Origin: Candidatus Bathyarchaeota archaeon
GTDB taxonomy: Archaea > Thermoproteota > Bathyarchaeia > Bathyarchaeales > Bathycorpusculaceae
Length of the DNA: 64,000 nucleotides
Reading direction: 5' to 3'
NCBI GenBank assembly: GCA_026014725.1
Contig: JAOZHV010000026.1
Span: 248,001 to 312,000 of the forward strand
Positions within the stretch are counted from its first letter, which is position 1; each line of letters starts with the position of its first letter. The notes beneath the pieces were generated by a model. The model did not search any database. It was given only the letters and a program-made list of their open reading frames with translations, and was not told the origin of the DNA. A program made the position numbers and the translations under genes. This document shows positions 37,675-54,864 of the stretch, in pieces.

Positions 37675-39180
37675 TTAGAGTGTTAGTGTAATGAAGGGCA
37701 ACTGGTCTACTACCGGATCTACTAGATGGAAGACGATGTCTGGGTACAAGCCTAACACTATGATTGCGGCAACCAGCATGAAGATTGGCACAAGCAACCG
37801 TTTGGGCTCTTTAATTTTTGTTTCATCTTTTGGTTTTTTTGCATACATGTAATTGACGAGTCTAAATATGTACGCAGTTTGCAATACACTTGTTAAAACA
37901 CCTATGACTGCCAGCCAACTCAGGTTAGCCTCGATGGCTGCTGTGAATACTAAGTACTTAGCCAAGAACCCTCCAAAGGGCGGAACGCCAGCAAACGACA
38001 TCCCAGCCATCACTAAAGCTAAGCAGACCATTGGCATTTTCCAGCCTAACCCTGAGAAGTCTTCAAGCGTGTGGAACCCATGCCTGTTAATGATGCCTAC
38101 TACCATGAACGCAAGCGCTGTAGTTATGCCTCCAATAAGGAAGAAGTACATATTACCAATGATGCCCAGCGAAGTGAAACTTGTGATTGCCACCAAGTTG
38201 TAGCCGACATCAGCGACACATATGTTAGCAATTAACCGTTTCACGTTGTCCTGAATTAGAGCAAACAGGTTGCCAACAATCATGGTCAGTGCAGCCATTA
38301 TGGCTAGCATGAAAGTCCAGTTCAACGCTCCAGTAGGCGTTATAATAAACACGAGCACTCGAATCAAGATGTAGTAGCTACCTTGGTCAACAAGTGCTGA
38401 GAGAAAGGCGGCGGATGTTGATGGCGCAGCAGTGTAAGCGTCAGGAAGCCAGAAGTGGAAGGGTACGATTGCTGACTCTATTGCGTAGCCAGTGGCAATG
38501 AATATGAAAGCAATGACTAGGAGGGTTTTATCACTTAAAGTCATCAGTGCTTGCTGTACAGCCACAAAGTTAAGACTGCCCGTTATGCCATAAACAAGTG
38601 AAAGCCCGAAAACCACGAAGGCAGAAGCGATTATTATCATAACTAAATATTTTAAGGTGGAGTTCAATGTTAGCGCGCTCTTTTTGTAGAGCATCATAAA
38701 TCCTGCGCCTGCAGCGGCAGCTTCCCAGAAAATGAAGAGCGTTAGCAAATCGCCTGAGAGGACAGCGCCCATTAAAGAGGCAGTGAGCAGAAGCATAATC
38801 GCGAAATACCGCTCAGATGGTCGAGCACTTGAATTAACAAACAATACGGTGTAGAGCGTGATGACGGCGCTTAGTGCAATTATGATTACTGTCATGTAAA
38901 TAGAAATTGCGTCAATCATAAGCGCACTCGAGAAAACTGAAAGCGCACTATTAGTCAACGATAAATTTACAACAGGAGGCGGAGAAGTACTATAGTACGT
39001 TATCACCAAGTTGGTTACAGCTAAACCAGCAGCGGTAAAAACCGCAATGAACCAGCCCAATGTCAAGGCAGTTTGATGCTTAGCTTTTCTAATTACTTTA
39101 AAGGCTGGAATAGTCAGTATTGCTGAAATAACTAAAGCAATAATCGGTAATACTGCATCGATAATTTGAACCTCAACCAT
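37675..39180 (-). CDS. NuoN-like antiporter-type subunit of a membrane hydrogenase/complex I
   Basis: The last gene of the eleven-gene cluster, a 501-residue protein with about fourteen membrane helices and a proton-translocation domain. Typical elements are LFIFWEAAAAGAGFMMLYKK (with the conserved helix-5 glutamate), a lysine-bearing NSTLKYLVMI, VPFHFWLPDAYTAAPSTSAA and a broken helix further on. It is one of three antiporter-like subunits (with 39199 and 40746) that should pump ions across the membrane using redox energy from the peripheral arm. Eighteen bases separate it from the M-like gene. Confidence 0.88.
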   Translation of the reverse strand: MVEVQIIDAVLPIIALVISAILTIPAFKVIRKAKHQTALTLGWFIAVFTAAGLAVTNLVITYYSTSPPPVVNLSLTNSALSVFSSALMIDAISIYMTVIIIALSAVITLYTVLFVNSSARPSERYFAIMLLLTASLMGAVLSGDLLTLFIFWEAAAAGAGFMMLYKKSALTLNSTLKYLVMIIIASAFVVFGLSLVYGITGSLNFVAVQQALMTLSDKTLLVIAFIFIATGYAIESAIVPFHFWLPDAYTAAPSTSAAFLSALVDQGSYYILIRVLVFIITPTGALNWTFMLAIMAALTMIVGNLFALIQDNVKRLIANICVADVGYNLVAITSFTSLGIIGNMYFFLIGGITTALAFMVVGIINRHGFHTLEDFSGLGWKMPMVCLALVMAGMSFAGVPPFGGFLAKYLVFTAAIEANLSWLAVIGVLTSVLQTAYIFRLVNYMYAKKPKDETKIKEPKRLLVPIFMLVAAIIVLGLYPDIVFHLVDPVVDQLPFITLTL

Positions 39181-39198: not shown

Positions 39199-40740
39199 CT
39201 AACCGAATACTCCAAATTGCACCGTCTGAATCAATTGAATGAAGAATGTCGGGTACACCCCAACCAGAATCACTAAGATTACAAGTACACCTAAGGCGAA
39301 TTTCATGTAGTTTGGAACATCCACAAGTTTATGCTCCTTTTCTCCGCCGTTCTGGTCCTTATATTGACCTAAGAAAACTTTTGAACTGAACCGCAACGTG
39401 TAAGCCAACGAGAACACCGTTGCTATAAGCATAAAGGCGGTTGGGAACAGGTAAAAACTATCAACGCTAATTATCTCAAATGCACCAACGAATATCAGGA
39501 ACTCACTGATGAAGCACGCAAAGGGAGGCGCTCCAGCAATACTCAAAGCAGCAGTTATACCCGAGACAGCTGTAAACGGCATTTTACCCGCTAATCCACC
39601 CATCTCGCGAATGTCTCGTTTTTCAGTCTGGTGCATAACCGCTCCTGCCGAAAGGAAGAACAACCCTTTGCTAACCGCATGACTGATAATGTGAAGCACT
39701 GTTCCCGTTATCGCTGTTGCTGATGCTAAAATTACCGCTGACCCCGCCAATATAGATGTTGGAAACAGCGAGAGCCCAAACATTATGTAACCCATATGGG
39801 CAATGCTTGAGTAAGCAATTAACCGTTTGATATCAGTTTCCACCAGTGCTATCAAGGAGCCGAAGAACGCAGAGATTATGCCAAAGACTGCTAAACCATG
39901 CAGGAAGTTAACGCCAAACGCTTCACCTACTGAAGGGAAAACCACGCCTAAAGATAAACGCAAAATTGCATAAGCTCCAGCGCTAATGATAACTCCACTA
40001 AGGAGCGCAGACATGGTGGCGGGTGCTTCCGAGTGCGCGTCAGGTAGCCACATGTGAACAGGAACAATTGCCATTTTTACTGCGAACCCAGCGGTTAATG
40101 CTATGAGAATCCAACGTACAATATCTGTGCTGGCATTCATCAATGCTGCTTGAACTTGGAACATGTCAGTGTAGCCTGTAACCATGTACATTGCGCCTAT
40201 GCCTAACAGTACGAACACGGCTCCAGCATGTGTGAATATGAACAGCTTGAAGGCCGCCTTGTACGAGTCTCTATAGCCCCAACTGCCCACGATGAAGTAA
40301 GCTGGAACAAGCATTAGCTCCCAACAGAAATAAAACAGCAAAAGGTCAGATGTAATGAAGACTCCGACAAGACCAACAGACAGCAAGCATAACAGAGCAT
40401 AATAAGCAGGCAGATTCTTTTTTCCAGCCATATAATTTATTGAGAAAATCGAAGCTGCGAATATTAACGCAAGGCTTATGATAGCTATAGAAGCACTGAT
40501 TCCGTCAACAAATAACGTAAATGAAGCGTTAATAATGGGAATCCATGCGTAGGTTTCGATGTAATGATGCGTTGGGTCGTTGAGAACCGTGGGAACAGTG
40601 GATAAAATTAGGGCTAAATTAACCAGCGCTATTGCTGCAACAAAAAGCGCCGCGGCTTTAGGGGATTTTTTTCCAGCTAAGTAAACGAATGGTACACTCA
40701 GCGTGGGGATAGCGAATATTGCAAGTAGAGCGAATGGCAT
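39199..40740 (-). CDS. NuoM-like antiporter-type subunit
   Basis: A 513-residue protein with about fourteen membrane helices. The NuoM signature includes LFYFCWELMLVPAYFIVGSWG (conserved glutamate), KAAFKLFIFTHAGAVFVLLG, KMAIVPVHMWLPDAHSEAPA and YSSIAHMGYIMFGLSLFP. It pumps protons or sodium with its N- and L-like neighbours. Its gene lies six bases downstream of the L-like gene. An AGGAG precedes the ATG. Confidence 0.92.
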   Translation of the reverse strand: MPFALLAIFAIPTLSVPFVYLAGKKSPKAAALFVAAIALVNLALILSTVPTVLNDPTHHYIETYAWIPIINASFTLFVDGISASIAIISLALIFAASIFSINYMAGKKNLPAYYALLCLLSVGLVGVFITSDLLLFYFCWELMLVPAYFIVGSWGYRDSYKAAFKLFIFTHAGAVFVLLGIGAMYMVTGYTDMFQVQAALMNASTDIVRWILIALTAGFAVKMAIVPVHMWLPDAHSEAPATMSALLSGVIISAGAYAILRLSLGVVFPSVGEAFGVNFLHGLAVFGIISAFFGSLIALVETDIKRLIAYSSIAHMGYIMFGLSLFPTSILAGSAVILASATAITGTVLHIISHAVSKGLFFLSAGAVMHQTEKRDIREMGGLAGKMPFTAVSGITAALSIAGAPPFACFISEFLIFVGAFEIISVDSFYLFPTAFMLIATVFSLAYTLRFSSKVFLGQYKDQNGGEKEHKLVDVPNYMKFALGVLVILVILVGVYPTFFIQLIQTVQFGVFG

Positions 40741-40745
40741 TTTTT

Positions 40746-42767
40746 TTACACTCCTAAGGTTAATATTATCAATATCACGATTAAGATGAAACCTATCACT
40801 GCCGCAGCAATGTAGTGCTGAAGCGATGTAGAGGGGGTTTTCTTTATTTGTTTGGCGCCGCTGAGCGTTTTATTTCCCAGTGCGCTTAAGAATTTATCCA
40901 GTAAAACGTCGAATTTCTGGATTCCTGTTGCACCTTTCAGGGACCTGTTTGCTACGACATTTAAGAATTGATCAACCAGCACATCAAAGTAAGTGTGGAC
41001 TCCGCCTGCAAAGCGCATTACGCCACTGGCTAAGTTTTGTGGGAAGAGGTTGATAGTATCTTCAAAGCGCCCGAGAGCACTTGAGAATTTGGATATACCC
41101 CTTGCTACTGCACCGTAGAAGTCGTCGAAGAAGTAGCCATGGCTTAGAAGTGACGATATTGGATTTTTGCTGCTGCCTATGCCCCTCATAGTTTGATTAT
41201 TCTTAAAGTAAGTTAAATATATAATTAAGCCAGTTGGCACTAAAAGTGCAAAGAAAATCAGCGTCTCCAAATTCAAAAAAGCACCTACAAGAGTAGTTTC
41301 CAGCTCAAAATGCATAAAGCTGGCAACTAGCGGCTCAGCTAAACCCCAAATCACACATAAGACACCTAGAATCATGGCTGGGTACAGCATAATTTTTGGC
41401 GCTTCATGAGGATGTTGCTTGGTTAGATACTCAGATTCTTTTCCCATAAACACTAAACTAAGGAACCTGAGACTGTAAGCAAACGTAATTGCTGTTGTTG
41501 CAAATATCAGAATAGTTTGTAGTAGGCTACCTGAAGTCATTACACTTTCAATGATTAAGCCTTTACTAAAGAAAGCCGCGAAAGGAGGCAAACCACTGGT
41601 TGTAATAACCATAAGCACAGATAAACCAAAAGTGATTGGCATAGCTTTCTTTAAGCCACCCATCAAACGCATGTCACGAGTACCCAGCGCGTGTATGATG
41701 CCTCCTGCAAGCAAGAATCCTAAACCTTCAAAGAAAGCGTGGCTTATCATGTGGAATAGACTTCCAAACCAGCCTGTCGCTTCGGCTGATGTTGCAGTGC
41801 CCAGCGCCGCCATCATGAAGCCAAGTTGGCTGATTGTGGAGTAAGCGAGAACTCCCTTTATGTCAGTAGTATGCAACGCTAATGTGGCACCTACAACCGC
41901 TGTTAAAACGCCTATCCAAGCTACCGTAGGCAACCAGTAAGGAAGCAAAACAGCTAACGGACCAATGATTAGGATGAATCGTGCAATAAGGTAGACACCT
42001 GCCTTAACCATTGTAGCCGCATGCAAGAGCGCGCTAACTGAAGTGGGTGCCTCCATAGCGCTGTAGAGCCAAGTATGCATAGGGAGCTGGGCTGATTTTG
42101 CTATTGCACCGCCAAGAGTTAAGAATGCAATAATTGTCAAAGTGGGAATCGGCACATTTCCTATGTTTGCAATTATTTCTCTAAAGCTAAACGTGCCTAA
42201 GCTTGCATAGAAAAGCGCTATTGCGCCCAATAGAGCGACATCGCCAATGCGAGTCATTATGAAAACTTTGACGCCTGCTCGGATAGATTCAGGCCGTTTG
42301 TACCAGAAAGAGATTAGAGAGAAAGAGCATAAGCCGACCATTTCCCAGAAAATAAACATCTGAAGCATGTTGTCTGAAATAACCAGACCAATCATGGAGC
42401 CAATGAAAAGTAACATTAAGAAGTAGTACCGTGTTAAGCCTTCCTCGCCCTTCATGTAGCCTAAGGAGTAGATAGTGATTATTAACCCAAAGAAAGCAAC
42501 CAGAGTTGTAAATAACACACTCAGAGGATCAATAAATACGCCTGCACTAATGCTTTCAAACCAAGTCACTGACGTGCCTGTGGCGACACCGCCGCCGGAA
42601 AACACGCCAGGCACCAGTGACAAGGCCAAGCCTACAGTTATAGTTGAAACTGCAACTACAAAGTAGTCTCTCGCTTTATCGCTAATCTTTGCAATTAAAG
42701 GTACAAATAGGCAAGAAACGAGCGGTAGAACCCAAACAAGCCATGAAGCGATATCGTCAAGCAGCAT
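40746..42767 (-). CDS. NuoL-like antiporter-type subunit with C-terminal lateral helix
   Basis: A 673-residue protein, the longest of the three antiporter-like subunits. The core has IFWEMVGLCSFSLISFWYKR, TRIGDVALLGAIALFY, QLPMHTWLYSAMEAPTSVSA and YSTISQLGFMMAALG. After the fourteen-helix core, about 200 residues include an amphipathic stretch and a final anchor helix (IAAAVIGFILIVILIILTLG). That fits the lateral helix that ties L to M and N in complex I. The start codon overlaps the stop of the K-like gene (TAATG). Confidence 0.92.
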   Translation of the reverse strand: MLLDDIASWLVWVLPLVSCLFVPLIAKISDKARDYFVVAVSTITVGLALSLVPGVFSGGGVATGTSVTWFESISAGVFIDPLSVLFTTLVAFFGLIITIYSLGYMKGEEGLTRYYFLMLLFIGSMIGLVISDNMLQMFIFWEMVGLCSFSLISFWYKRPESIRAGVKVFIMTRIGDVALLGAIALFYASLGTFSFREIIANIGNVPIPTLTIIAFLTLGGAIAKSAQLPMHTWLYSAMEAPTSVSALLHAATMVKAGVYLIARFILIIGPLAVLLPYWLPTVAWIGVLTAVVGATLALHTTDIKGVLAYSTISQLGFMMAALGTATSAEATGWFGSLFHMISHAFFEGLGFLLAGGIIHALGTRDMRLMGGLKKAMPITFGLSVLMVITTSGLPPFAAFFSKGLIIESVMTSGSLLQTILIFATTAITFAYSLRFLSLVFMGKESEYLTKQHPHEAPKIMLYPAMILGVLCVIWGLAEPLVASFMHFELETTLVGAFLNLETLIFFALLVPTGLIIYLTYFKNNQTMRGIGSSKNPISSLLSHGYFFDDFYGAVARGISKFSSALGRFEDTINLFPQNLASGVMRFAGGVHTYFDVLVDQFLNVVANRSLKGATGIQKFDVLLDKFLSALGNKTLSGAKQIKKTPSTSLQHYIAAAVIGFILIVILIILTLGV

Positions 42768-43081
42768 TAAATTTCAACCTCGCTTTCACTTTCATCTTGC
42801 TTGCTCAGTATTTCACTGATATCGCTTGTTCCGAACCTTTTAGATACGATAACAAGCAATCCTAAAATGACTGCACTTATGGCAGTGTCAGTTGAAAACG
42901 CTAAAATCAAAAACGCTTCACCCAGTTCCTTGCCCATAGCGGAAGCAAGTGTAATAAAATTCAACGTGGCACCTGTGGCTATTAGCTCCACTGATATGAA
43001 TACTTTCAGCAGGTGCCGCTTCGTAAGCAAACCGTAAATTCCAATGAATAGCATGATAAGTGAAACAATGACGAAATCCAT
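42767..43081 (-). CDS. NuoK-like membrane subunit
   Basis: A 104-residue, three-helix subunit. The conserved glutamate lies in LKVFISVELIATGATLNFIT (helix 2) and a second acidic residue in FSTDTAISAVILGLLVIV. NuoK-type subunits form part of the central proton path and are shared with MrpC-type antiporters. The short acidic tail (SKQDESESEVEI) is unusual but harmless. The gene overlaps its neighbours on both sides. Confidence 0.9.
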   Translation of the reverse strand: MDFVIVSLIMLFIGIYGLLTKRHLLKVFISVELIATGATLNFITLASAMGKELGEAFLILAFSTDTAISAVILGLLVIVSKRFGTSDISEILSKQDESESEVEI

Positions 43082-43542
43082 TATTTCTTCCCCTTCTTTT
43101 CATACAGGACAATGGCTATGCCTGATGCCACAATCAAAATGACTAAACCTTGCAGAGCAACATCAAAAGCTCTCAGATTCCACAGTGCTTCACCAAAAGA
43201 AACACCAGCAGTTGTTGCCGTGCTGGGACTGGAAACTGAAAAGAAAATGGCGGGCAAAGATAAAACAATACTTGCACCTATTAATGCTGCGAAACTTTTA
43301 GGCGAGGTTTTCTTTGTAGGCTTATCACTCAACATTTCACCTGACAAGAACAAGATGGCTAATGTTCCCACGCCTACAGCAAACTGGAAAATGGCGACAT
43401 AAATAGCCCCGTTTAAGAGGTAAACAAAAGCTACGCAGAAGAATGTTCCAGCTAGAGCGGCAACGGAGTAAACGGCCTCATCGAGAAACAGGGCAAGACA
43501 AGCGGAAACAATCATGCCTACTGCAAGTATCTCCAATATCAT
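43081..43542 (-). CDS. NuoJ-like membrane subunit
   Basis: A 153-residue protein with five hydrophobic segments. Conserved elements are DEAVYSVAALAGTFFCVAFVY and YVAIFQFAVGVGTLAILFLS, matching the NuoJ helix-3 region that carries the pi-bulge in complex I. It lies between the I- and K-like genes with overlaps, as in nuo and fpo operons. Confidence 0.85.
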   Translation of the reverse strand: MILEILAVGMIVSACLALFLDEAVYSVAALAGTFFCVAFVYLLNGAIYVAIFQFAVGVGTLAILFLSGEMLSDKPTKKTSPKSFAALIGASIVLSLPAIFFSVSSPSTATTAGVSFGEALWNLRAFDVALQGLVILIVASGIAIVLYEKKGKK

Positions 43543-43922
43543 TGTCCTTCACTCTTTTGCATGCTTGCTTGAGGCTTTATGACTAATGAAGATTTATCAG
43601 TTGTGGCTAACTCATAAAAAACAGAGCTCTTAATTGCGTTTCTCGGGCAACTTTCTGCGCACTGATAGCAGAAGATACATTGGTCAAGCTTGAATTGAGG
43701 TCGCCTTTTTCCGTTAACCTCAACCATCTCTATGGCTTTAGCGGGACAATCGCGACTACACAGACCGCAACTAACGCAAAGAGTTATGTCAAATACCTGT
43801 TGCCCTCGAAAGTCATCAGGCAAGGTAGGCTTCTCGAACGGGTACTTAGTTGTCGCTGGCTTAGTAAAGATGTGTGATACAGCCCTTTTAAGCATCGGAG
43901 AGATATGTGATTTTTTCGCCAT
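43539..43922 (-). CDS. NuoI-like 2x[4Fe-4S] ferredoxin subunit
   Basis: A 127-residue electron-transfer subunit. Two clusters are held by CVSCGLCSRDCPAKAIEM and CIFCYQCAESCPRNAIKSS (CxxCxxCxxxCP twice). It should link the electron input module to the small subunit's proximal cluster. It is similar in both complex I and group 4 hydrogenases, so it does not decide between them. The gene follows the H-like gene by three bases and overlaps the J-like gene. Confidence 0.92.
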   Translation of the reverse strand: MAKKSHISPMLKRAVSHIFTKPATTKYPFEKPTLPDDFRGQQVFDITLCVSCGLCSRDCPAKAIEMVEVNGKRRPQFKLDQCIFCYQCAESCPRNAIKSSVFYELATTDKSSLVIKPQASMQKSEGQ

Positions 43923-43925
43923 CTT

Positions 43926-44924
43926 TTACACCACCATAGGATAAACCCATTTAACCATTGCAACCGTTAATAATAGCGACAACACCGCCGCTGGTAAAAG
44001 AAACTTCCAGTTGGCAGACAAAACTTGGTCAATGCGTAAACGTGCAAAAACACATGTGATATACTCGCTAATCACTATCACTGCCAAAACCTTGAGCACA
44101 AACCAAAGTGTATACCAGAACCAAGGAGCACCAAAGAACACAGGACCGTAAGGACCACCCAAGAACAATTGAGTCACCAAAGCCGCGCCAAAAACAATCT
44201 GCACATCCCGTGTCAGGTGCAGGAAGGCTAATTTGCCGCCAGTGTATTCAGTTTCTAATCCGCCGACTACCTCGCTTTCAGCATGCGGGATGTCAAACGG
44301 GTCTTTTTCCAATTCAGCCTGCAAAGTGATTACAAATAATACGAAAGCCCACGGTGCTAAAATAATGAAAGGAAGCAACTGAGTTGCTTGAACTGCAGCT
44401 ATCTGCGCAATGCTTAAACTGCCAGCGATGAAAGCGGGTGTCAAGGCTAACAAGAAAAGCGGAATATCGTATCCAAGAAACTGGGTCAACACTCTCGCTG
44501 AGCCGATAGCGCCGTAAGGGTTAGACGATGCCCATCCAGAGAGGAACAACAAAAAGTTTGCAATGGTAACAAATGCTAAAATCACAACCAAATCGCCGGG
44601 GAAACCGCTTACAGAGAGCACGCTTGCGCCATCAATAGGCAAAAAGCACATTGCAAAAACCATAATCGTGAAAGCCACTAAAGGCGCAAACCTGAAAATG
44701 TACTTTTTAGCGTCTCTTGGCTCAATATCCTCTTTCGTCAACAGCTTGATGAAGTCGGCAAGCGGCTGAAGGATGCCATGAGGACCCGCAACCATTGGCC
44801 CAACACGGTTTTGTATGCGGGCTTCTATTTTTCTCTCAACCCAATCAGCGAAAAGCGTTAAGAGCAGTATGAAGCTAAAGCCGGGAAAGACCAGAATGCG
44901 GAAGATAAGCATAAAGTCAATCAC
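43926..44924 (-). CDS. NuoH-like membrane anchor subunit
   Basis: A 332-residue subunit with about eight helices that couples the peripheral arm to the membrane arm. Signature blocks are VERKIEARIQNRVGPMVAGP, LQPLADFIKLLTKEDIEP and DIPHAESEVVGGLETEYTGG, the last being the acidic loop near the quinone or hydrogenase interface. It is related to HycD/EchB in hydrogenases and NuoH in complex I. Seven bases separate it from the CD-like gene. Confidence 0.93.
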   Translation of the reverse strand: MIDFMLIFRILVFPGFSFILLLTLFADWVERKIEARIQNRVGPMVAGPHGILQPLADFIKLLTKEDIEPRDAKKYIFRFAPLVAFTIMVFAMCFLPIDGASVLSVSGFPGDLVVILAFVTIANFLLFLSGWASSNPYGAIGSARVLTQFLGYDIPLFLLALTPAFIAGSLSIAQIAAVQATQLLPFIILAPWAFVLFVITLQAELEKDPFDIPHAESEVVGGLETEYTGGKLAFLHLTRDVQIVFGAALVTQLFLGGPYGPVFFGAPWFWYTLWFVLKVLAVIVISEYITCVFARLRIDQVLSANWKFLLPAAVLSLLLTVAMVKWVYPMVV

Positions 44925-44931
44925 TCATAGG

Positions 44932-46506
44932 TCACCTGTCTGTGCATGAGAAGCATGGGTCTAAGCTGACAAAGTTCGCTGGAACATCAGCTATGCTCTC
45001 ACCTATAGCTGTTTTAAGGAATGCTGGAATGTTAGCGAACGTTGGCGTGCGAACTTTAACACGTTCAGGCATGGCTGTACCGTTACTTTTAACGTAATAG
45101 AAGAGTTCGCCTCTTGGAGCTTCAACACGGTTCACCGCTTCGCCAGGAGGCACAACACGGGGCGCTTTAACACGGAAGGGACCAGCGGGCAAATTGTCAA
45201 TTGCGTACTCGATGATGTTGATGCTTTCTTCAACCTCATCCATGCGGACATTCATTCTTGCCCACGTATCGCCAGCAGTGTAAACTATTTCTTTAAACGG
45301 AATTTCACCATACGCCTCGTAAGGCTCATCCTTACGCACATCAATATCATACCCTGAACCTCGTGCCACTGGACCCACAACCGAGAGCTTTATTGCGTCT
45401 TCCCGTTTGAGGACACCAACGTTTTGCATACGCATCTTAATTGACGGCTCATCCTCGTAAACTTGCCTGTAAAACGGCACTTTCTTTCTCAAATCAGCTA
45501 AGGTTGCCTTGATTTTTGGGATATCGCTTTCTTTCAAGTCTCGTCTTACACCGCCTACAGTCATAAGTGAGGAGTAAACACGGTTGCCGCTGGTTAACTC
45601 GATTAAGTCCATGATTGGTTCGCGGTCACGCCAGAAATACTGGAAGAGCGTTTCGTAACCGATTTCTAAACCTGCGTGCCCCAAGGTTAGCAAGTGGCTG
45701 TGTAGCCTGTTGAGTTCCAAAGCAATCACGCGAAGATACTTGGCTCTTGGCGGGACTTCAGTTTTTAGTATTTTTTCAACTGTTTCAACGAAGCTGCAAG
45801 CATGGATACTGTTGCAGATACCGCAAATGCGCTCGACCAAGTACACATCTTGCAGGTAAGTGCGTGATTCAGAGGCTTTCTCTATGCCACGGTGCACGTA
45901 ACCAATTCTTGGCTCAACTTTAGTCACTGTTTCTCCGTCAACGGTTACGGCGAATTTTTCTGGCTCCAAAAGGGCAGGGTGCTGTGGACCGATAATGATC
46001 TTGACAAGTTTTTCGCCCTCTTCCAGCTTAACCTCTTCTGGAGGCGACGGGTCTAACTGTACTGCACCAGCATCAACATCCTTTCTCAGCGGGTAAACAC
46101 CTTTTGGCCAATTATCTGTCAAGACTAGCCGTCCAGGGCAGGGATGCCCCTCGAAAACCGCCCCCAATAAGTCAGACACTTCCATTTCATGAAAAACTGC
46201 ACCTAGAAGTATGTCAGTTACGGTTTGAATGTTGGGTTTTTCTTTAGGCACTTCGGCTTTTACTGTTACAAAAGCGTTTGTGGTGCGTATGTGGTAGTAG
46301 ATGCCTAGGTTCGCGCCTAGGTCTAGGCCAGTTATTGCTGTTATAGCTGTTTTTTCATCTGCGTCAACCATTGCTTGCATAACGTCTCGGTGCAAGCCGT
46401 TGTTGGCAATTATTGTGCCTGTGCTGAGTAGCCCTGCTTCAATCTGTACTTTCTTTTTAAGTTTAGATTGAACTACACTGAGTATGTCTATGTTACTGCT
46501 TGACAC
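44932..46506 (-). CDS. Group 4 [NiFe]-hydrogenase-type large subunit fused to a NuoC-like domain
   Basis: Residues 1-140 form a 30-kDa NuoC-like domain (HEMEVSDLLGAVFEGHPCPG). The remainder is the catalytic subunit, starting at IGPQHPALLEPEKF. Both nickel-binding motifs are present: RICGICNSIH (Cys 228 and 231, His 235) and DPCFSCTDR at the very end (Cys 518 and 521). Complex I NuoD proteins lack these cysteines. The ORF stops directly after the final Arg, so no cleavable maturation peptide is seen. I chose GTG 46506 because GAGGAG lies ten bases upstream; a TTG at 46524 overlaps that site. Overall it resembles HycE/HyfG-type fusions. Confidence 0.92.
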   Translation of the reverse strand: MSSSNIDILSVVQSKLKKKVQIEAGLLSTGTIIANNGLHRDVMQAMVDADEKTAITAITGLDLGANLGIYYHIRTTNAFVTVKAEVPKEKPNIQTVTDILLGAVFHEMEVSDLLGAVFEGHPCPGRLVLTDNWPKGVYPLRKDVDAGAVQLDPSPPEEVKLEEGEKLVKIIIGPQHPALLEPEKFAVTVDGETVTKVEPRIGYVHRGIEKASESRTYLQDVYLVERICGICNSIHACSFVETVEKILKTEVPPRAKYLRVIALELNRLHSHLLTLGHAGLEIGYETLFQYFWRDREPIMDLIELTSGNRVYSSLMTVGGVRRDLKESDIPKIKATLADLRKKVPFYRQVYEDEPSIKMRMQNVGVLKREDAIKLSVVGPVARGSGYDIDVRKDEPYEAYGEIPFKEIVYTAGDTWARMNVRMDEVEESINIIEYAIDNLPAGPFRVKAPRVVPPGEAVNRVEAPRGELFYYVKSNGTAMPERVKVRTPTFANIPAFLKTAIGESIADVPANFVSLDPCFSCTDR

Positions 46507-47029
46507 TTGTCTGGGTCTCCTCAACTTTTAGTTTTTCTTCTTGTGGCTTCTCCGCTTTTTTTGGCTGTTCAACTTGTTTTTCCGTCTTTGGCTGTTTCTT
46601 TGGTTTAGGCGGGTTCAGAGCGTTTAGAAGCTTAACTACGCCATCCATGATTGCTTCTGGACGCGGTGGGCATCCAGGTATGTAAGCGGTAACTGGTATG
46701 ACTTTGTCTACTCCTCCGAGTACGTTGTAGCATCCAGCGAAGACTCCGCCGCTGCAGGCGCAGGCTCCGATGGCTACGACAAATTTTGGTTGCGGCATTT
46801 GGTCGTAGATTCGTTTGAGTCTTTCTGCACATTGTTTTGTGACACCGCCAGTGACCAGCAAAACATCTGCATGTCTCGGTGAGGGCTCAAGTTTTACGCC
46901 GAAGCGTTCAACGTCATATTTTGGAGTGAGTAGCGCCACGATTTCTATGTCGCATCCGTTGCAGGCTCCTGAGTTAAAGTGTAACACCCAAGGCGATTTT
47001 ACTCGTGCCCACGTTACAGTGCTAGTCAT
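46493..47029 (-). CDS. Group 4 [NiFe]-hydrogenase-type small subunit (NuoB-like)
   Basis: A 178-residue subunit carrying one [4Fe-4S] cluster that passes electrons to the catalytic site. Ligands lie in FNSGACNGCDIEIVALL (CxxC), GACACSGGVFAGC and IPGCPPRPEAI. The CNGC spacing is that of group 4 hydrogenases; complex I NuoB has adjacent cysteines. The last 40 residues are a Lys/Glu/Pro-rich tail (about 138-178), rare in this family. GGAGG precedes the ATG, which overlaps the NuoA-like stop. Confidence 0.92.
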   Translation of the reverse strand: MTSTVTWARVKSPWVLHFNSGACNGCDIEIVALLTPKYDVERFGVKLEPSPRHADVLLVTGGVTKQCAERLKRIYDQMPQPKFVVAIGACACSGGVFAGCYNVLGGVDKVIPVTAYIPGCPPRPEAIMDGVVKLLNALNPPKPKKQPKTEKQVEQPKKAEKPQEEKLKVEETQTSVKQ

Positions 47030-47358
47030 TTTTCTTTTCCTCCTTCTAAGAGAACTAACCCAGCAGCTAAAAGTATGCCAAGGTAGAGAACTAATAGAAG
47101 CGGATTTGCACTCGCTATCGAGAAAGAAGCAAATGCCAGCAACAGCACTGAAGAATCGAAGATTACAAAGTAAATCAGGTACTTGTACAGCGAAACGTTT
47201 ACTTTAAGTCCACTAAACGACACTTTTTCGCCACACGCGTACGATGCTTGCTCGTTTTCGTTTATAACGGTTTTGGGTGCTGACCGCTTACCTAAAATGT
47301 AAATTGCGAACGTTGATATGAATATCAGTATGAACGCAATGGCGGCTTCTTCAATCAT
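47026..47358 (-). CDS. NuoA-like membrane subunit
   Basis: A 110-residue three-helix protein. YACGEKVSFSG corresponds to the NuoA loop (YECG), and LIYFVIFDSSVLLLAFASF corresponds to the second helix with a conserved Asp; the usual Glu after it is replaced by Ser. NuoA-type subunits are a hallmark of complex I and Fpo and are not typical of simple Ech hydrogenases. The start overlaps the preceding 75-residue ORF (ATGA). Confidence 0.82.
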   Translation of the reverse strand: MIEEAAIAFILIFISTFAIYILGKRSAPKTVINENEQASYACGEKVSFSGLKVNVSLYKYLIYFVIFDSSVLLLAFASFSIASANPLLLVLYLGILLAAGLVLLEGGKEK

Positions 47359-47582
47359 GCGTTTTCTTCTCCATTTGGTTGTATGGATATTTTAGCTGAG
47401 TTGCCAAATTTACATTTGTCATAGCTAAAAGCGATGTTATGAACGCATTTAAGCTTATCTACAGTAAAACTGTACAAAAGCCCATCATTTCCTATAAATG
47501 CTAAATAATTGTCTTGCAACAAACCGACGAAGCCATTTTCATCGGCGACAATGCCCTCACGTATTACACTATTATCTCCCAT
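47355..47582 (-). CDS. 75-residue unknown protein at the head of the hydrogenase cluster
   Basis: A small soluble protein overlapping the NuoA-like gene by four bases, so it is very likely translated with the cluster. It looks beta-rich (GIVADENGFVGLLQDNYLAF, then GLLYSFTVDKL) and holds two cysteines. No family is recognised. It may be an assembly or regulatory factor of the complex, as inferred from position alone. Confidence 0.6.
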   Translation of the reverse strand: MGDNSVIREGIVADENGFVGLLQDNYLAFIGNDGLLYSFTVDKLKCVHNIAFSYDKCKFGNSAKISIQPNGEENA

Positions 47583-47692: not shown

Positions 47693-48169
47693 TTACTCTG
47701 TTTCTGCTGCCCCGTGCCATCTTCTTTCCAAGTAAAGTATCAAGCTGAAGAGGCCTCGGCTGATGATAACCAAGATCAGCAGTGTGAATTCTTCATAAGT
47801 TCTAACAACAACGGTTTTTATGATTTCTGCTCCAATAAAAAATTCTAGTGCCAAGGTTAAGTATCCTGAAAGAAAGCGCGTTACGCAGGATGGTTTGTAA
47901 GGGTCTTGGAGTTTGCATTGTATGAATCGTATGGTTACTACTAGAACACCAAAGAGAAGTATGCCGCCGCCTACAAGGTAAATTAAATCGGTAGTTATCG
48001 TTAGCAAGGTATCGATGACACTTTCTAGGCTTGGAATAAACAACTTGCTAAATGGTGTAATAAGAACCCCAAAAATTGCGCAAACTACTACTACAAGTAT
48101 TAATTCAATAGTTAAACGGCTAGATGATTTTTTAGCAGGTACACTACATTCAGTCATGCAATTAAGCAA
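47693..48169 (-). CDS. DUF1622-family membrane protein
   Basis: A 158-residue protein with three to four membrane helices. The family pattern is visible: LIYLVGGGILLFGVLVVTIR, then FLSGYLTLALEFFIGAEIIK and ILVIISRGLFSLILYLERRW. DUF1622 proteins have no known function. Here it lies between the FrhB-CBS gene (52 bp) and the hydrogenase cluster (110 bp), all on one strand, so a link to energy metabolism is possible but unproved. Confidence 0.8.
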   Translation of the reverse strand: MLNCMTECSVPAKKSSSRLTIELILVVVVCAIFGVLITPFSKLFIPSLESVIDTLLTITTDLIYLVGGGILLFGVLVVTIRFIQCKLQDPYKPSCVTRFLSGYLTLALEFFIGAEIIKTVVVRTYEEFTLLILVIISRGLFSLILYLERRWHGAAETE

Positions 48170-48221: not shown

Positions 48222-49727
48222 TCAAGATTGAGCTGCCAAAGCATGCATCAAATCAGTTTTGGTTACAACGCCGACAATTTTATTCGGGTTAGCCCTGTCG
48301 AATACTATCACTCTGCCTGTCTCGTTTTCACTCATTCGTTTGAAGATATCCAAAGCAGTTTCATCTGGATATGCCCTAACAAGTTTATGCTTGGCTATTT
48401 GACCCACTAATGTTGTATTTCTCTTAGACTTGTCAACACTTGAAGCTTCCTCTATGGTTATCCAGCCTATCGGTTCTTGTTTTTCATTCACCAAGGGATA
48501 CCCTATGTGGTGATATTTAGCTACCAAACCTAAGAATTGGCTCACAGTTATGTTTTCTGGCACAGTCCGCACATTAGTACCCATTATATCGGCAATCTTT
48601 ATTCGAGCAAGTTCACCCGTTTCCCTGAGCAAAAGCGGTGGAAGATAACCGGTAGTTTTCTCCATTTCAGCAGCGTTCTCAAGCCCTGCCTTTCGTTTCT
48701 GCATAGCAGCAACAATCACTCGTTCTAAGACGACAGGCTCTTCTTCCATGACCCAAGTGTTAATTACGCCATCTTCAACTGCCTTGTAGAAGAAATCTTC
48801 ACCAGCTTTAGTGCGAATAATTACCGTTGACCAATCCTTAAGGGGGTAAGCGCTTCCAATGGATATATCAGCTAACTCAGAAGTGAAATCAGTGCATTTA
48901 CGGCAACTCGGCAATATATGCTTCGAAACTTCAGACATGGGAAGTCGGATTTCGCCCTTACTTGTTTGCACAACAAAGTTGGATGATAAACGTATAAGCT
49001 TGATATCTGAAGGTTCGATATTATACTTCTTTTTTAAGTAATTAACTAACGTATTGAGCGATAACGTTCCAAAACAGAACAAACCGATTCTTATTTTAAG
49101 ATTCCCGCTGATTTTATGTTGCCATGCTTCTAGTTTACGAAGCGCTAGTATATGACAAGGAACCCCAACGAAGGCAATGTTAGATTTTCCGTAGCCATAA
49201 ACTGCACTGCCATATGCCTTGGCAACCGAAGAGGGGAAAAATTTGCTCCCTATCGCTGAAAGAATGTCATCAGGAACTGTAGCGACTGAAGCCCTCGGTT
49301 TAGCAGGGTTTTCAGGCTCAACCTGAGAAACAATCGCGCTATCAAAAATTTTGTTTTCAATACCATATTTAAGCAGTGAAGTAACGACTCCGCCGCCATT
49401 GCTTAATTCCCTTATTTTAGGGTCAACCGCCTGAACCAGCAACACCTTACGGTAATAACCTAACGCCTCATTCTTAACTGGTGTCTTTGAAACAAAACTC
49501 AGGCTTCTTAGCAAAAGAGCCTCTGAATGCGGGCAAATTTCATAGCAAATAGGACATAAATCCATGTCTTTAGAGCAATCATACACATGCTTTACGCTCT
49601 CACCTTCGACATGTAACGCGCTAACAGGGCATGCTGCTTCACAAGCGCCACATTGTGTGCAAAATCCAGAATCGATAATCTTCTTCTTCAAAATATTATA
49701 TGCGATAAGCGAATCAGGTTGTCCCAT
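48222..49727 (-). CDS. F420-type FrhB/FpoF protein with 2x[4Fe-4S] and CBS domains
   Basis: A 501-residue fusion. The N-terminus carries two [4Fe-4S] motifs (Cys 23, 26, 29 and 33; Cys 51, 58, 61 and 65). The middle is the coenzyme F420 hydrogenase/dehydrogenase beta domain, with ELSNGGGVVTSLLKYGIE, FVGVPCHILALRKLE and LPSCRKCTDFTSELADISIG. The C-terminal 125 residues form a CBS pair starting KIADIMGTNVRTVPENITVS. Related proteins oxidise F420H2 or reduce F420 with FAD. The CBS pair suggests control by an adenine nucleotide. Its position upstream of the Nuo-like cluster suggests it is the electron input or output module (inference). Confidence 0.88.
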   Translation of the reverse strand: MGQPDSLIAYNILKKKIIDSGFCTQCGACEAACPVSALHVEGESVKHVYDCSKDMDLCPICYEICPHSEALLLRSLSFVSKTPVKNEALGYYRKVLLVQAVDPKIRELSNGGGVVTSLLKYGIENKIFDSAIVSQVEPENPAKPRASVATVPDDILSAIGSKFFPSSVAKAYGSAVYGYGKSNIAFVGVPCHILALRKLEAWQHKISGNLKIRIGLFCFGTLSLNTLVNYLKKKYNIEPSDIKLIRLSSNFVVQTSKGEIRLPMSEVSKHILPSCRKCTDFTSELADISIGSAYPLKDWSTVIIRTKAGEDFFYKAVEDGVINTWVMEEEPVVLERVIVAAMQKRKAGLENAAEMEKTTGYLPPLLLRETGELARIKIADIMGTNVRTVPENITVSQFLGLVAKYHHIGYPLVNEKQEPIGWITIEEASSVDKSKRNTTLVGQIAKHKLVRAYPDETALDIFKRMSENETGRVIVFDRANPNKIVGVVTKTDLMHALAAQS

Positions 49728-53172: not shown

Positions 53173-54864
53173 TCACATTTCGGCTTTTCTCAAAAGGTCT
53201 GCTGCGCTATTAAGGTTGATTCGATAGAAAATAGTTGTGATGACTATTGATATGATGCCACTGATTATAATTGAAATGGCAAGGTTCAGAATGCTGGCTG
53301 AAACCCCCAAGAAGGATGGAACGAACATTGAGATAATATATGGTGCTAAAGGTGCCAGTACCCCGCCGCCTGCAAGCGTACAAACAATTAAGCTTATCAA
53401 TGACCACTCTTGACGAATCATTCGTTTTCGACGTGTTTCAGTGAAGTCAGCGCCTTTAAAGCCGATTGCAAGCGAAATCGTGCCAACAGCAGGTATTAAA
53501 AAGACCGCTTCTACACCAGCCACAGTTAGCAATTTCAAGGAAGGTTGAAATATAATTGCCCCGACTATAATGCCGATGACTAAAATAATCAGTGAAAAGA
53601 ACATCAAGAAAAATAATTTGCTTTTCACCAAGTTTTTAGCTGAAACTGGCGAAGCATAAATTCTCCACACCGCTTGACCTTCTTCACCCACTAAAATGTT
53701 ACCTACAATCATCGCCATTATTGATGGCGGAAACAGAAAAATCATAGCCTGAAAAATAAAATCAACTTCTGCTGGTGCGCCATTGTTGGTTAGACCAATT
53801 GATTGCATAATTGGCACCACCATGAAAATAATCGGTACAATAAAAATGGAAATCAGTTCTCTGCGTCTTGTAAACGCCTTTAAATCCTTATGAATTATGG
53901 CTGATTCAACAGTTGAGAAGCCGAGTTTTCCTAAAAATCCCGCTTTCGGAGCGTAGATGCCGCTCTTTTGAACCCTGATTGCTGGCGGTTCATAGAGTCC
54001 AAACCTTTGGTTTAATGCAACAGCAAGATAGTATAAGCCTGCGATAAGCACCGCAGATAAGCCGGCGAACAATAAACCCTGCAAAACTACACCATTAAGC
54101 AAGTAAGAAAGCATTATAGCTAGCCATGCATATGGAATAAACCACACACTCGTCTGGATTGCAGACAAGCTTTGGAAGAACTCTCCAAACCCAGAAGTTA
54201 TGTAGAAGTAAATAACGTAAAAGATTAAAAAGAACATTAAAGACCCAATAAATCGTACCCAAACAGCTGCTCTGCCGCTTGACTTGTAAACAGCACCTAT
54301 AAAGCGCACTTGTAGGATTCTCAGAATCTCGGTTGTGGCACTAGCCATAAAGGCTGCGGCGAAGACAGCGAGTACAGTTAAAATGGCAGGTAAAATCAGC
54401 CCGTTTAGAGCTGAGAACACTAACGTTCCTGACGAGAAAGCTATCACTATTCCCAGAGGATACCCAAACAAATTAGCCAAGATGGAGGCAAAGGTGTGCT
54501 CCTGCCACGTTACAGGCAACCAATACATAACTTGTGTTGATGCTTTGATTCCGCTGAGTTGGATTTGCTGGAGTAAAGTTAGCACTAAACTGAAGATTAA
54601 AACAAGCGTCGGTAAAGACACGAAAACCATGAATGCTGTTTCAGGCAGAGGCGCTATTCCTGGGATTTCGCTTGGGTTTTGGTAAATTAATGTTGCGATA
54701 AAATTGAAAAGCAAACCACCGAGTATTCCTACCACTAAGGCAAGCCAGTAAGGCCAATACGCTAGAAACTTGTTTTCTTTGTACCTTGTAGTTTTTGCTC
54801 CCCTGATTAGCCTGCCTGATTTGCGTTCCACCTGCATCAGATAGATAACGTGTTTCCAATTCAT
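53173..54864 (-). CDS. Large ABC-2 type exporter permease
   Basis: A 563-residue membrane protein with about twelve to fourteen helices, roughly double an ordinary ABC-2 permease. A cytosolic basic start (MNWKHVIYLMQVERKSGRLI) precedes the first helix. A region near KAFTRRRELISIFIVPIIFM and NILVGEEGQAVWRIYASPVS resembles bacterial ABC exporters of the YthQ/ABC-2 type with many unknown substrates. The start overlaps the ATPase stop (ATGA). The promoter of the pair carries three 20-bp tandem repeats. Confidence 0.8.
   Translation of the reverse strand: MNWKHVIYLMQVERKSGRLIRGAKTTRYKENKFLAYWPYWLALVVGILGGLLFNFIATLIYQNPSEIPGIAPLPETAFMVFVSLPTLVLIFSLVLTLLQQIQLSGIKASTQVMYWLPVTWQEHTFASILANLFGYPLGIVIAFSSGTLVFSALNGLILPAILTVLAVFAAAFMASATTEILRILQVRFIGAVYKSSGRAAVWVRFIGSLMFFLIFYVIYFYITSGFGEFFQSLSAIQTSVWFIPYAWLAIMLSYLLNGVVLQGLLFAGLSAVLIAGLYYLAVALNQRFGLYEPPAIRVQKSGIYAPKAGFLGKLGFSTVESAIIHKDLKAFTRRRELISIFIVPIIFMVVPIMQSIGLTNNGAPAEVDFIFQAMIFLFPPSIMAMIVGNILVGEEGQAVWRIYASPVSAKNLVKSKLFFLMFFSLIILVIGIIVGAIIFQPSLKLLTVAGVEAVFLIPAVGTISLAIGFKGADFTETRRKRMIRQEWSLISLIVCTLAGGGVLAPLAPYIISMFVPSFLGVSASILNLAISIIISGIISIVITTIFYRINLNSAADLLRKAEM

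Follow-up and report, generated by a model that had tools for sequence, protein, structure and literature searches.

Through which port could electrons enter an energy-converting hydrogenase for which no electron-input module has been described? Hfo, the Fpo-like [NiFe] hydrogenase (4g) of Bathyarchaeia, has been described without an FpoF-type port or F420-binding module (PMC7886697), and Bathyarchaeial fpo clusters are likewise said to be without FpoFO (PMC8407382). In the window analyzed here, a 64,000-nucleotide stretch of a Candidatus Bathyarchaeota genome (GCA_026014725.1, contig JAOZHV010000026.1), a Nuo/Fpo-like cluster has beside it a gene for an FrhB-family protein that ends in a pair of CBS domains, which we call FrhB-CBS. 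The locus thus raises the questions of whether this protein serves the neighboring complex, with which carrier, and what the CBS pair contributes.

Results

FrhB-CBS is a 501-aa protein with an ATG start encoded on the minus strand (48222..49727, −); the plus-strand reading of the same interval has stops throughout. Its N-terminal 2×[4Fe-4S] ferredoxin region (residues 17–68; 49524..49679, −) contains the cysteine sets C23/26/29/33 and C51/58/61/65, with a Pfam match to Fer4 at residues 17–38 and weaker dicluster matches up to residue 70. This region precedes an FrhB_FdhB_N domain (residues 98–171; 49215..49436, −; E = 2.3e-15), whose glycine loop matches the FAD pyrophosphate loop of FrhB, and an FrhB_FdhB_C domain (residues 183–325; 48753..49181, −; E = 3.4e-36) with the cluster ligands C191, C218, C275, and C278; PF04422 and PF04432 score 56.9 and 124.8 bits against gathering cut-offs of 22 and 23.3. 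Beyond a poorly conserved linker lie CBS motif 1 (residues 376–432; 48432..48602, −; G421, T424, E427) and CBS motif 2 (residues 441–498; 48234..48407, −; G486, T489, D492), two stretches detected by Pfam at 1.5e-18 and ending at residue 498. Pfam gave no match to an NAD(P)-binding domain in the protein. In an alignment of 33 relatives, the eight ferredoxin cysteines are invariant, C218, C275, and C278 of the FrhB [4Fe-4S] cluster are present in 33/33, and C191 is present in 29/33, being replaced by histidine in four proteins (G038, G040, G119, and L040). Together with the predicted CBS fold described below, the Pfam matches and invariant cysteines bear out the initial annotation, according to which a single ORF combines a pair of [4Fe-4S] motifs with an FrhB domain and ends in a CBS pair. 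A fold of the whole protein computed with 12 sequences reached a pLDDT of 51 overall with the FrhB half at low confidence, and so no claim about docking or a pocket is drawn from it.

The minus-strand gene order in the window is an ABC cassette, FrhB-CBS, a DUF1622 membrane protein (47693..48169, −), a small ORF, and nuoA-B-CD-H-I-J-K-L-M-N, with about 860 bp and the DUF1622 gene separating FrhB-CBS from nuoA. The DUF1622 gene also adjoins nuoA in some clusters that are without FrhB-CBS. The small ORF (approximately 47377-47582, −), which is unannotated and starts MGDNSVIREGIVADENGF, lies immediately before nuoA, and a 563-aa ORF without a Pfam match (53173-54864, −) is located close to the ABC-transporter genes that precede FrhB-CBS. 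Scans for sigma-70-type promoters and TATA-like elements returned sites no more numerous than in shuffled sequences. The cluster encodes, all on the minus strand, NuoA/FpoA-like (47026..47358), the proximal Fe-S subunit NuoB/FpoB-like (46493..47029), a NuoCD/FpoCD-like large subunit (44932..46524), NuoH/FpoH-like (43926..44924), a NuoI/FpoI-like 2×[4Fe-4S] subunit that would be the docking point (43539..43922), NuoJ/FpoJ-like (43081..43542), NuoK/FpoK-like (42767..43081), and the ion-pumping subunits NuoL/FpoL-like (40746..42767), NuoM/FpoM-like (39199..40740), and NuoN/FpoN-like (37675..39180). This is the gene order of an 11-subunit complex without NuoEFG, with C and D fused.

The large subunit contains both [NiFe] motifs, L1 as RICGICNSIH (45802..45831, −) and L2 as DPCFSCTDR at its C terminus (44935..44961, −). 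Because all four [NiFe]-ligand cysteines are kept in the NuoD part, the cluster can be assigned from its sequence to the Fpo-like energy-converting [NiFe] hydrogenase Hfo, which it matches in the order A-B-CD-H-I-J-K-L-M-N and in having L1 and L2 in the D part (PMC7886697). The same genome encodes the maturation protein HypD. A quinone-reducing Fpo-type assignment was rejected, since both [NiFe] motifs are present. Every linked NuoD that is readable for both motifs retains L1 and L2, except that of a Baldrarchaeote (L040:508-954), which ends in DNCPADHDR and has lost the second L2 cysteine, so that the complex there may not be a hydrogenase.

Whether the carrier is F420 is, in our estimate, evenly balanced. 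The QxGG and GTKY loops surround FAD in FrhB (PMC3930138), and they are kept in the aligned FrhBs of the Protein Data Bank (PDB), in the second FrhB of the same genome, and in distant Bathyarchaeial paralogs; in the FrhB-CBS family, the FAD pyrophosphate loop retains its glycines, but the QxGG glutamine and the GTKY loop (Y position) are altered. The clade of the window has near-canonical residues at these places, GGG and GSKF. CofD and CofE of the F420 pathway exceed curated cut-offs in the window's genome, in which CofC, CofG, and CofH were not found. The FO synthase proteins CofG and CofH were above cut-off in none of the 37 and 31 genomes tested, CofC was found in few of the genomes tested, and CofE was found in all 37. 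CofD is absent from 10/31 FrhB-CBS genomes, single-contig ones included, and in all 10 the FrhB-CBS gene is linked to the cluster. Known F420 biosynthesis genes were likewise not found in other Bathyarchaeota (PMC9534799). With CofE in all 37 genomes and FO synthase found in none of those tested, the deazaflavin ring would have to be salvaged or made by a novel enzyme. The second, canonical-loop FrhB of the window's genome (287 aa; L066:9547-10410) adjoins a MetF-like ORF without a Pfam match (L066:10509-11234) and is near CofE (L066:14081-14839), and in another genome (G307), a canonical FrhB has MTHFR and the C-terminal partner of MTHFR nearby (L101).

The F420 electron gate of the initial annotation is therefore upheld in its Fe-S ligands and FAD-loop glycines and weakened in its carrier by the altered QxGG and GTKY loops, the failure to find FO synthase in any genome tested, and the absence of CofD from almost a third of the FrhB-CBS genomes. 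The same altered loops and missing cofactor genes, with the FrhB-CBS gene linked to the cluster in all the CofD-less genomes, agree with a port of Hfo that uses ferredoxin, NAD(P)H, or a deazaflavin-like carrier instead of F420, with the CBS pair regulating it. Among the solved relatives in the FrhB family, 7-hydroxymethyl chlorophyll a reductase (5dqr), which is not known to be an F420 enzyme, fits such a port as well. We nevertheless regard a non-F420 port as unlikely, if the most serious of the alternatives: CofE in 37/37 genomes and CofD in two thirds make an F420-type cofactor from a novel or salvage route possible, the loops of the window's clade are near-canonical, and Pfam detected nothing that would bind NAD(P). 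Somewhat less likely still, in our view, is a switchable port on a complex-I-like hydrogenase in which the FrhB module has drifted to another carrier or to a deazaflavin made independently of FO synthase, and in which the CBS pair gates by adenylate energy charge.

Linkage between FrhB-CBS and the hydrogenase-like cluster, for which the initial annotation had only this one locus, recurs across Bathyarchaeia, and homologs that are always unlinked, which would have refuted that annotation, are clearly not what is seen. The gene is located beside a Nuo/Fpo-like cluster at 28/38 loci (26/36 with three near-identical loci counted once), in different positions: upstream of nuoA at 7 loci, downstream of nuoN at 14 (three near-identical), downstream of nuoI at 6 in which the cluster has C and D split, and beside a NuoD at 1, in the Baldrarchaeote. 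The remaining copies comprise nine freestanding ones and one (G059) that lies at the end of its contig. Downstream of nuoN and nuoI, the measured intergenic distances range from −14 to 131 bp, with the genes on the same strand in 14/14. All genomes with a freestanding copy also carry NuoCD/Hfo elsewhere. Among 61 relatives, a NuoCD match was found in 16/17 with FrhB-CBS vs. 25/44 without (Fisher p = 0.006, for genomes that are not independent), the single FrhB-CBS genome without a match being G059, whose copy is at the contig end. Conversely, many genomes of the same genus have the cluster without FrhB-CBS, several of them with an ABC gene directly upstream of nuoA; Hfo therefore works without the protein, which on this gene content is a module that the cluster may have or lack. 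An aconitase gene follows most of the freestanding copies, which are often near an NUBPL-type Fe-S ATPase and an Alba-like protein (L053, L089-L092); the protein can thus be encoded apart from Hfo.

These freestanding copies bear on a second alternative, that FrhB-CBS is a soluble oxidoreductase (e.g., ferredoxin:F420) apart from Hfo and that the linkage reflects only a joint control of hydrogen metabolism and electron-carrier metabolism. Nine freestanding loci, the separate upstream spacer in the window, and the soluble ferredoxin:F420 activity proposed for FqoF-type proteins (PMC10667645) are in keeping with it. It is, however, difficult to reconcile with the operon-tight gaps after nuoN and nuoI, with linkage in three different positions, and with the restriction of freestanding copies to Hfo-bearing genomes, and we consider it improbable; a functional link of FrhB-CBS to Hfo is likely.

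Folded separately, the CBS half of the protein is confidently predicted to be a CBS pair (pLDDT 90) and matches solved CBS pairs with a TM score of about 0.7–0.85. In the alignment, the CBS2 signature G-x-x-T-x-x-D (G486, T489, D492) is kept in 33/33 sequences, and in CBS1, G421 is kept in 33/33, T424 in 31/33, and an acid at position 427 in 32/33. In CBS pairs, residues at these signature positions touch the ribose of bound adenosine nucleotides, and their conservation supports ligand binding. The CBS pair has thus retained the nucleotide-binding motif G-x-x-T-x-x-[DE] that the adenine-nucleotide sensing first ascribed to it would need, and it probably binds a nucleotide. Nucleotide control of electron flow through FrhB-CBS is plausible, and gating by energy charge would be consistent with the sequence. 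Dimerization is common among CBS pairs, and the pair might instead be a dimerization or docking scaffold that senses no nucleotide. In the carbon monoxide dehydrogenase (CODH) F420-reductase subunit, a C-terminal extension in the equivalent place forms the homodimer interface (PMC11493965), and one FrhB clade is located beside related clusters without any CBS domain (G041, G060, and G307), both of which agree with a scaffold. The near-invariance of the ribose-contact motif in 33 sequences goes beyond what a scaffold needs, and we judge this alternative very improbable.

Many genomes of one Bathyarchaeia order encode full-length relatives of FrhB-CBS, as do a single genome from another class (G119) and one Baldrarchaeote. 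FrhB proteins had been expected to end after the FrhB domain, and this holds within the phylum: across 398 genomes, only 23 matches extend through the CBS part, and nearly all other FrhB matches stop near model position 350-375. Median pairwise identity among the relatives is 46% in the CBS part, 53% in the FrhB part, and 28% in the linker. A chance fusion or assembly artifact is excluded, since dozens of genomes share the four-part domain order and conservation of the CBS part nearly reaches that of the FrhB part. By these comparisons, FrhB-CBS is a conserved family.

The CBS-less FrhBs beside related clusters form a single well-supported group in the gene tree, and the FrhB-CBS copies cluster by genomic position. 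Freestanding copies and copies upstream of nuoA nest within otherwise linked clades, with modest support for the upstream-of-nuoA group (68/82). Because of this grouping and nesting, the tree suggests that the position of FrhB-CBS shifted during evolution with linkage retained and that the linkage was later released in some genomes. A protein with four CBS domains is encoded near a CBS-less sister-group FrhB (L103:11208-11939), and its homolog adjoins a freestanding FrhB-CBS (L048:2-796).

Discussion

The best explanation of these data, although we hold it at a little short of an even chance as a whole, is that FrhB-CBS is an FpoF-like port of Hfo that works with an F420H2-type carrier and has acquired an adenine-nucleotide-sensing CBS pair for control by energy state. 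For docking, carrier, direction, and gating, we infer the following scheme. A soluble two-electron carrier, with F420H2 or a related deazaflavin as the leading candidate, would exchange hydride with the FAD of the FrhB domain. By way of the FrhB [4Fe-4S] cluster and then both ferredoxin clusters, electrons would reach NuoI, NuoB, and finally the [NiFe] site in NuoCD, where H2 would be made or used, and this chemistry would be coupled to ion transport by NuoH/L/M/N. The potential of F420/F420H2 is about −350 mV (PMC10229431); F420/F420H2 and H2/H+ are near in potential, and so the flow could reverse. The energy state, read by the CBS pair as AMP, ADP, or ATP, may then determine whether the port is opened, closed, or docked.

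Among known systems, FpoF/FqoF (NF040616 and NF006808) resembles FrhB-CBS in having two N-terminal [4Fe-4S] clusters, an FrhB domain, and a Nuo/Fpo-like cluster alongside; FrhB-CBS differs in its CBS pair, altered FAD and substrate loops, and a partner complex with [NiFe] motifs. It scores far below both equivalog cut-offs, 104 vs. 475 (NF040616) and 105.4 vs. 444 (NF006808), and the profile scores place it in the FrhB family, as a member with a CBS pair, but outside the FpoF equivalog. FrhB of FrhABG (TIGR03289; PDB 3zfs/4omf, 9r51, and 6qgr), against which FrhB-CBS scores 162 with a cut-off of 331.5, shares the FrhB fold, FAD, one [4Fe-4S] cluster, and a [NiFe] partner. Frh, however, is a soluble group 3 hydrogenase, and its FrhB is without fused ferredoxin or CBS domains and keeps the QDGG and GTKY/GTRY loops that are altered in the FrhB-CBS family.

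The best PDB match of FrhB-CBS (6.8e-44) is the F420-reductase subunit of an ethanotroph CODH (PDB 8riu; PMC11493965), which likewise consists of ferredoxin and F420-reductase domains with a C-terminal extension and is attached to another enzyme. Its host is CODH and its extension is a short dimerization tail, whereas the extension of FrhB-CBS is a CBS pair. In ethane oxidizers, this FrhB-like F420-reductase with its N-terminal ferredoxin domain is a CODH subunit, and a related module is found in Fwd (PMC11493965); these modules are a precedent for FrhB-CBS as a port on another enzyme. The closest sequence match of the CBS pair itself is that of an Archaeoglobus site-2 protease (PDB 5g5r/5g5x; 4.5e-14), of which a nucleotide-bound form has been solved and in which the pair is joined to a protease rather than to a redox module. 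Our literature searches found no paper on a CBS domain together with FrhB and no description of an electron-input module with a fused CBS pair that would put a complex-I relative or energy-converting hydrogenase under nucleotide control. One of the two studies of these Bathyarchaeial clusters (PMC7886697/PMC8407382) leaves the source of F420H2 and the FrhB partner open. With FrhB-CBS encoded in or beside the clusters, the missing port has a concrete candidate, and that question becomes testable.
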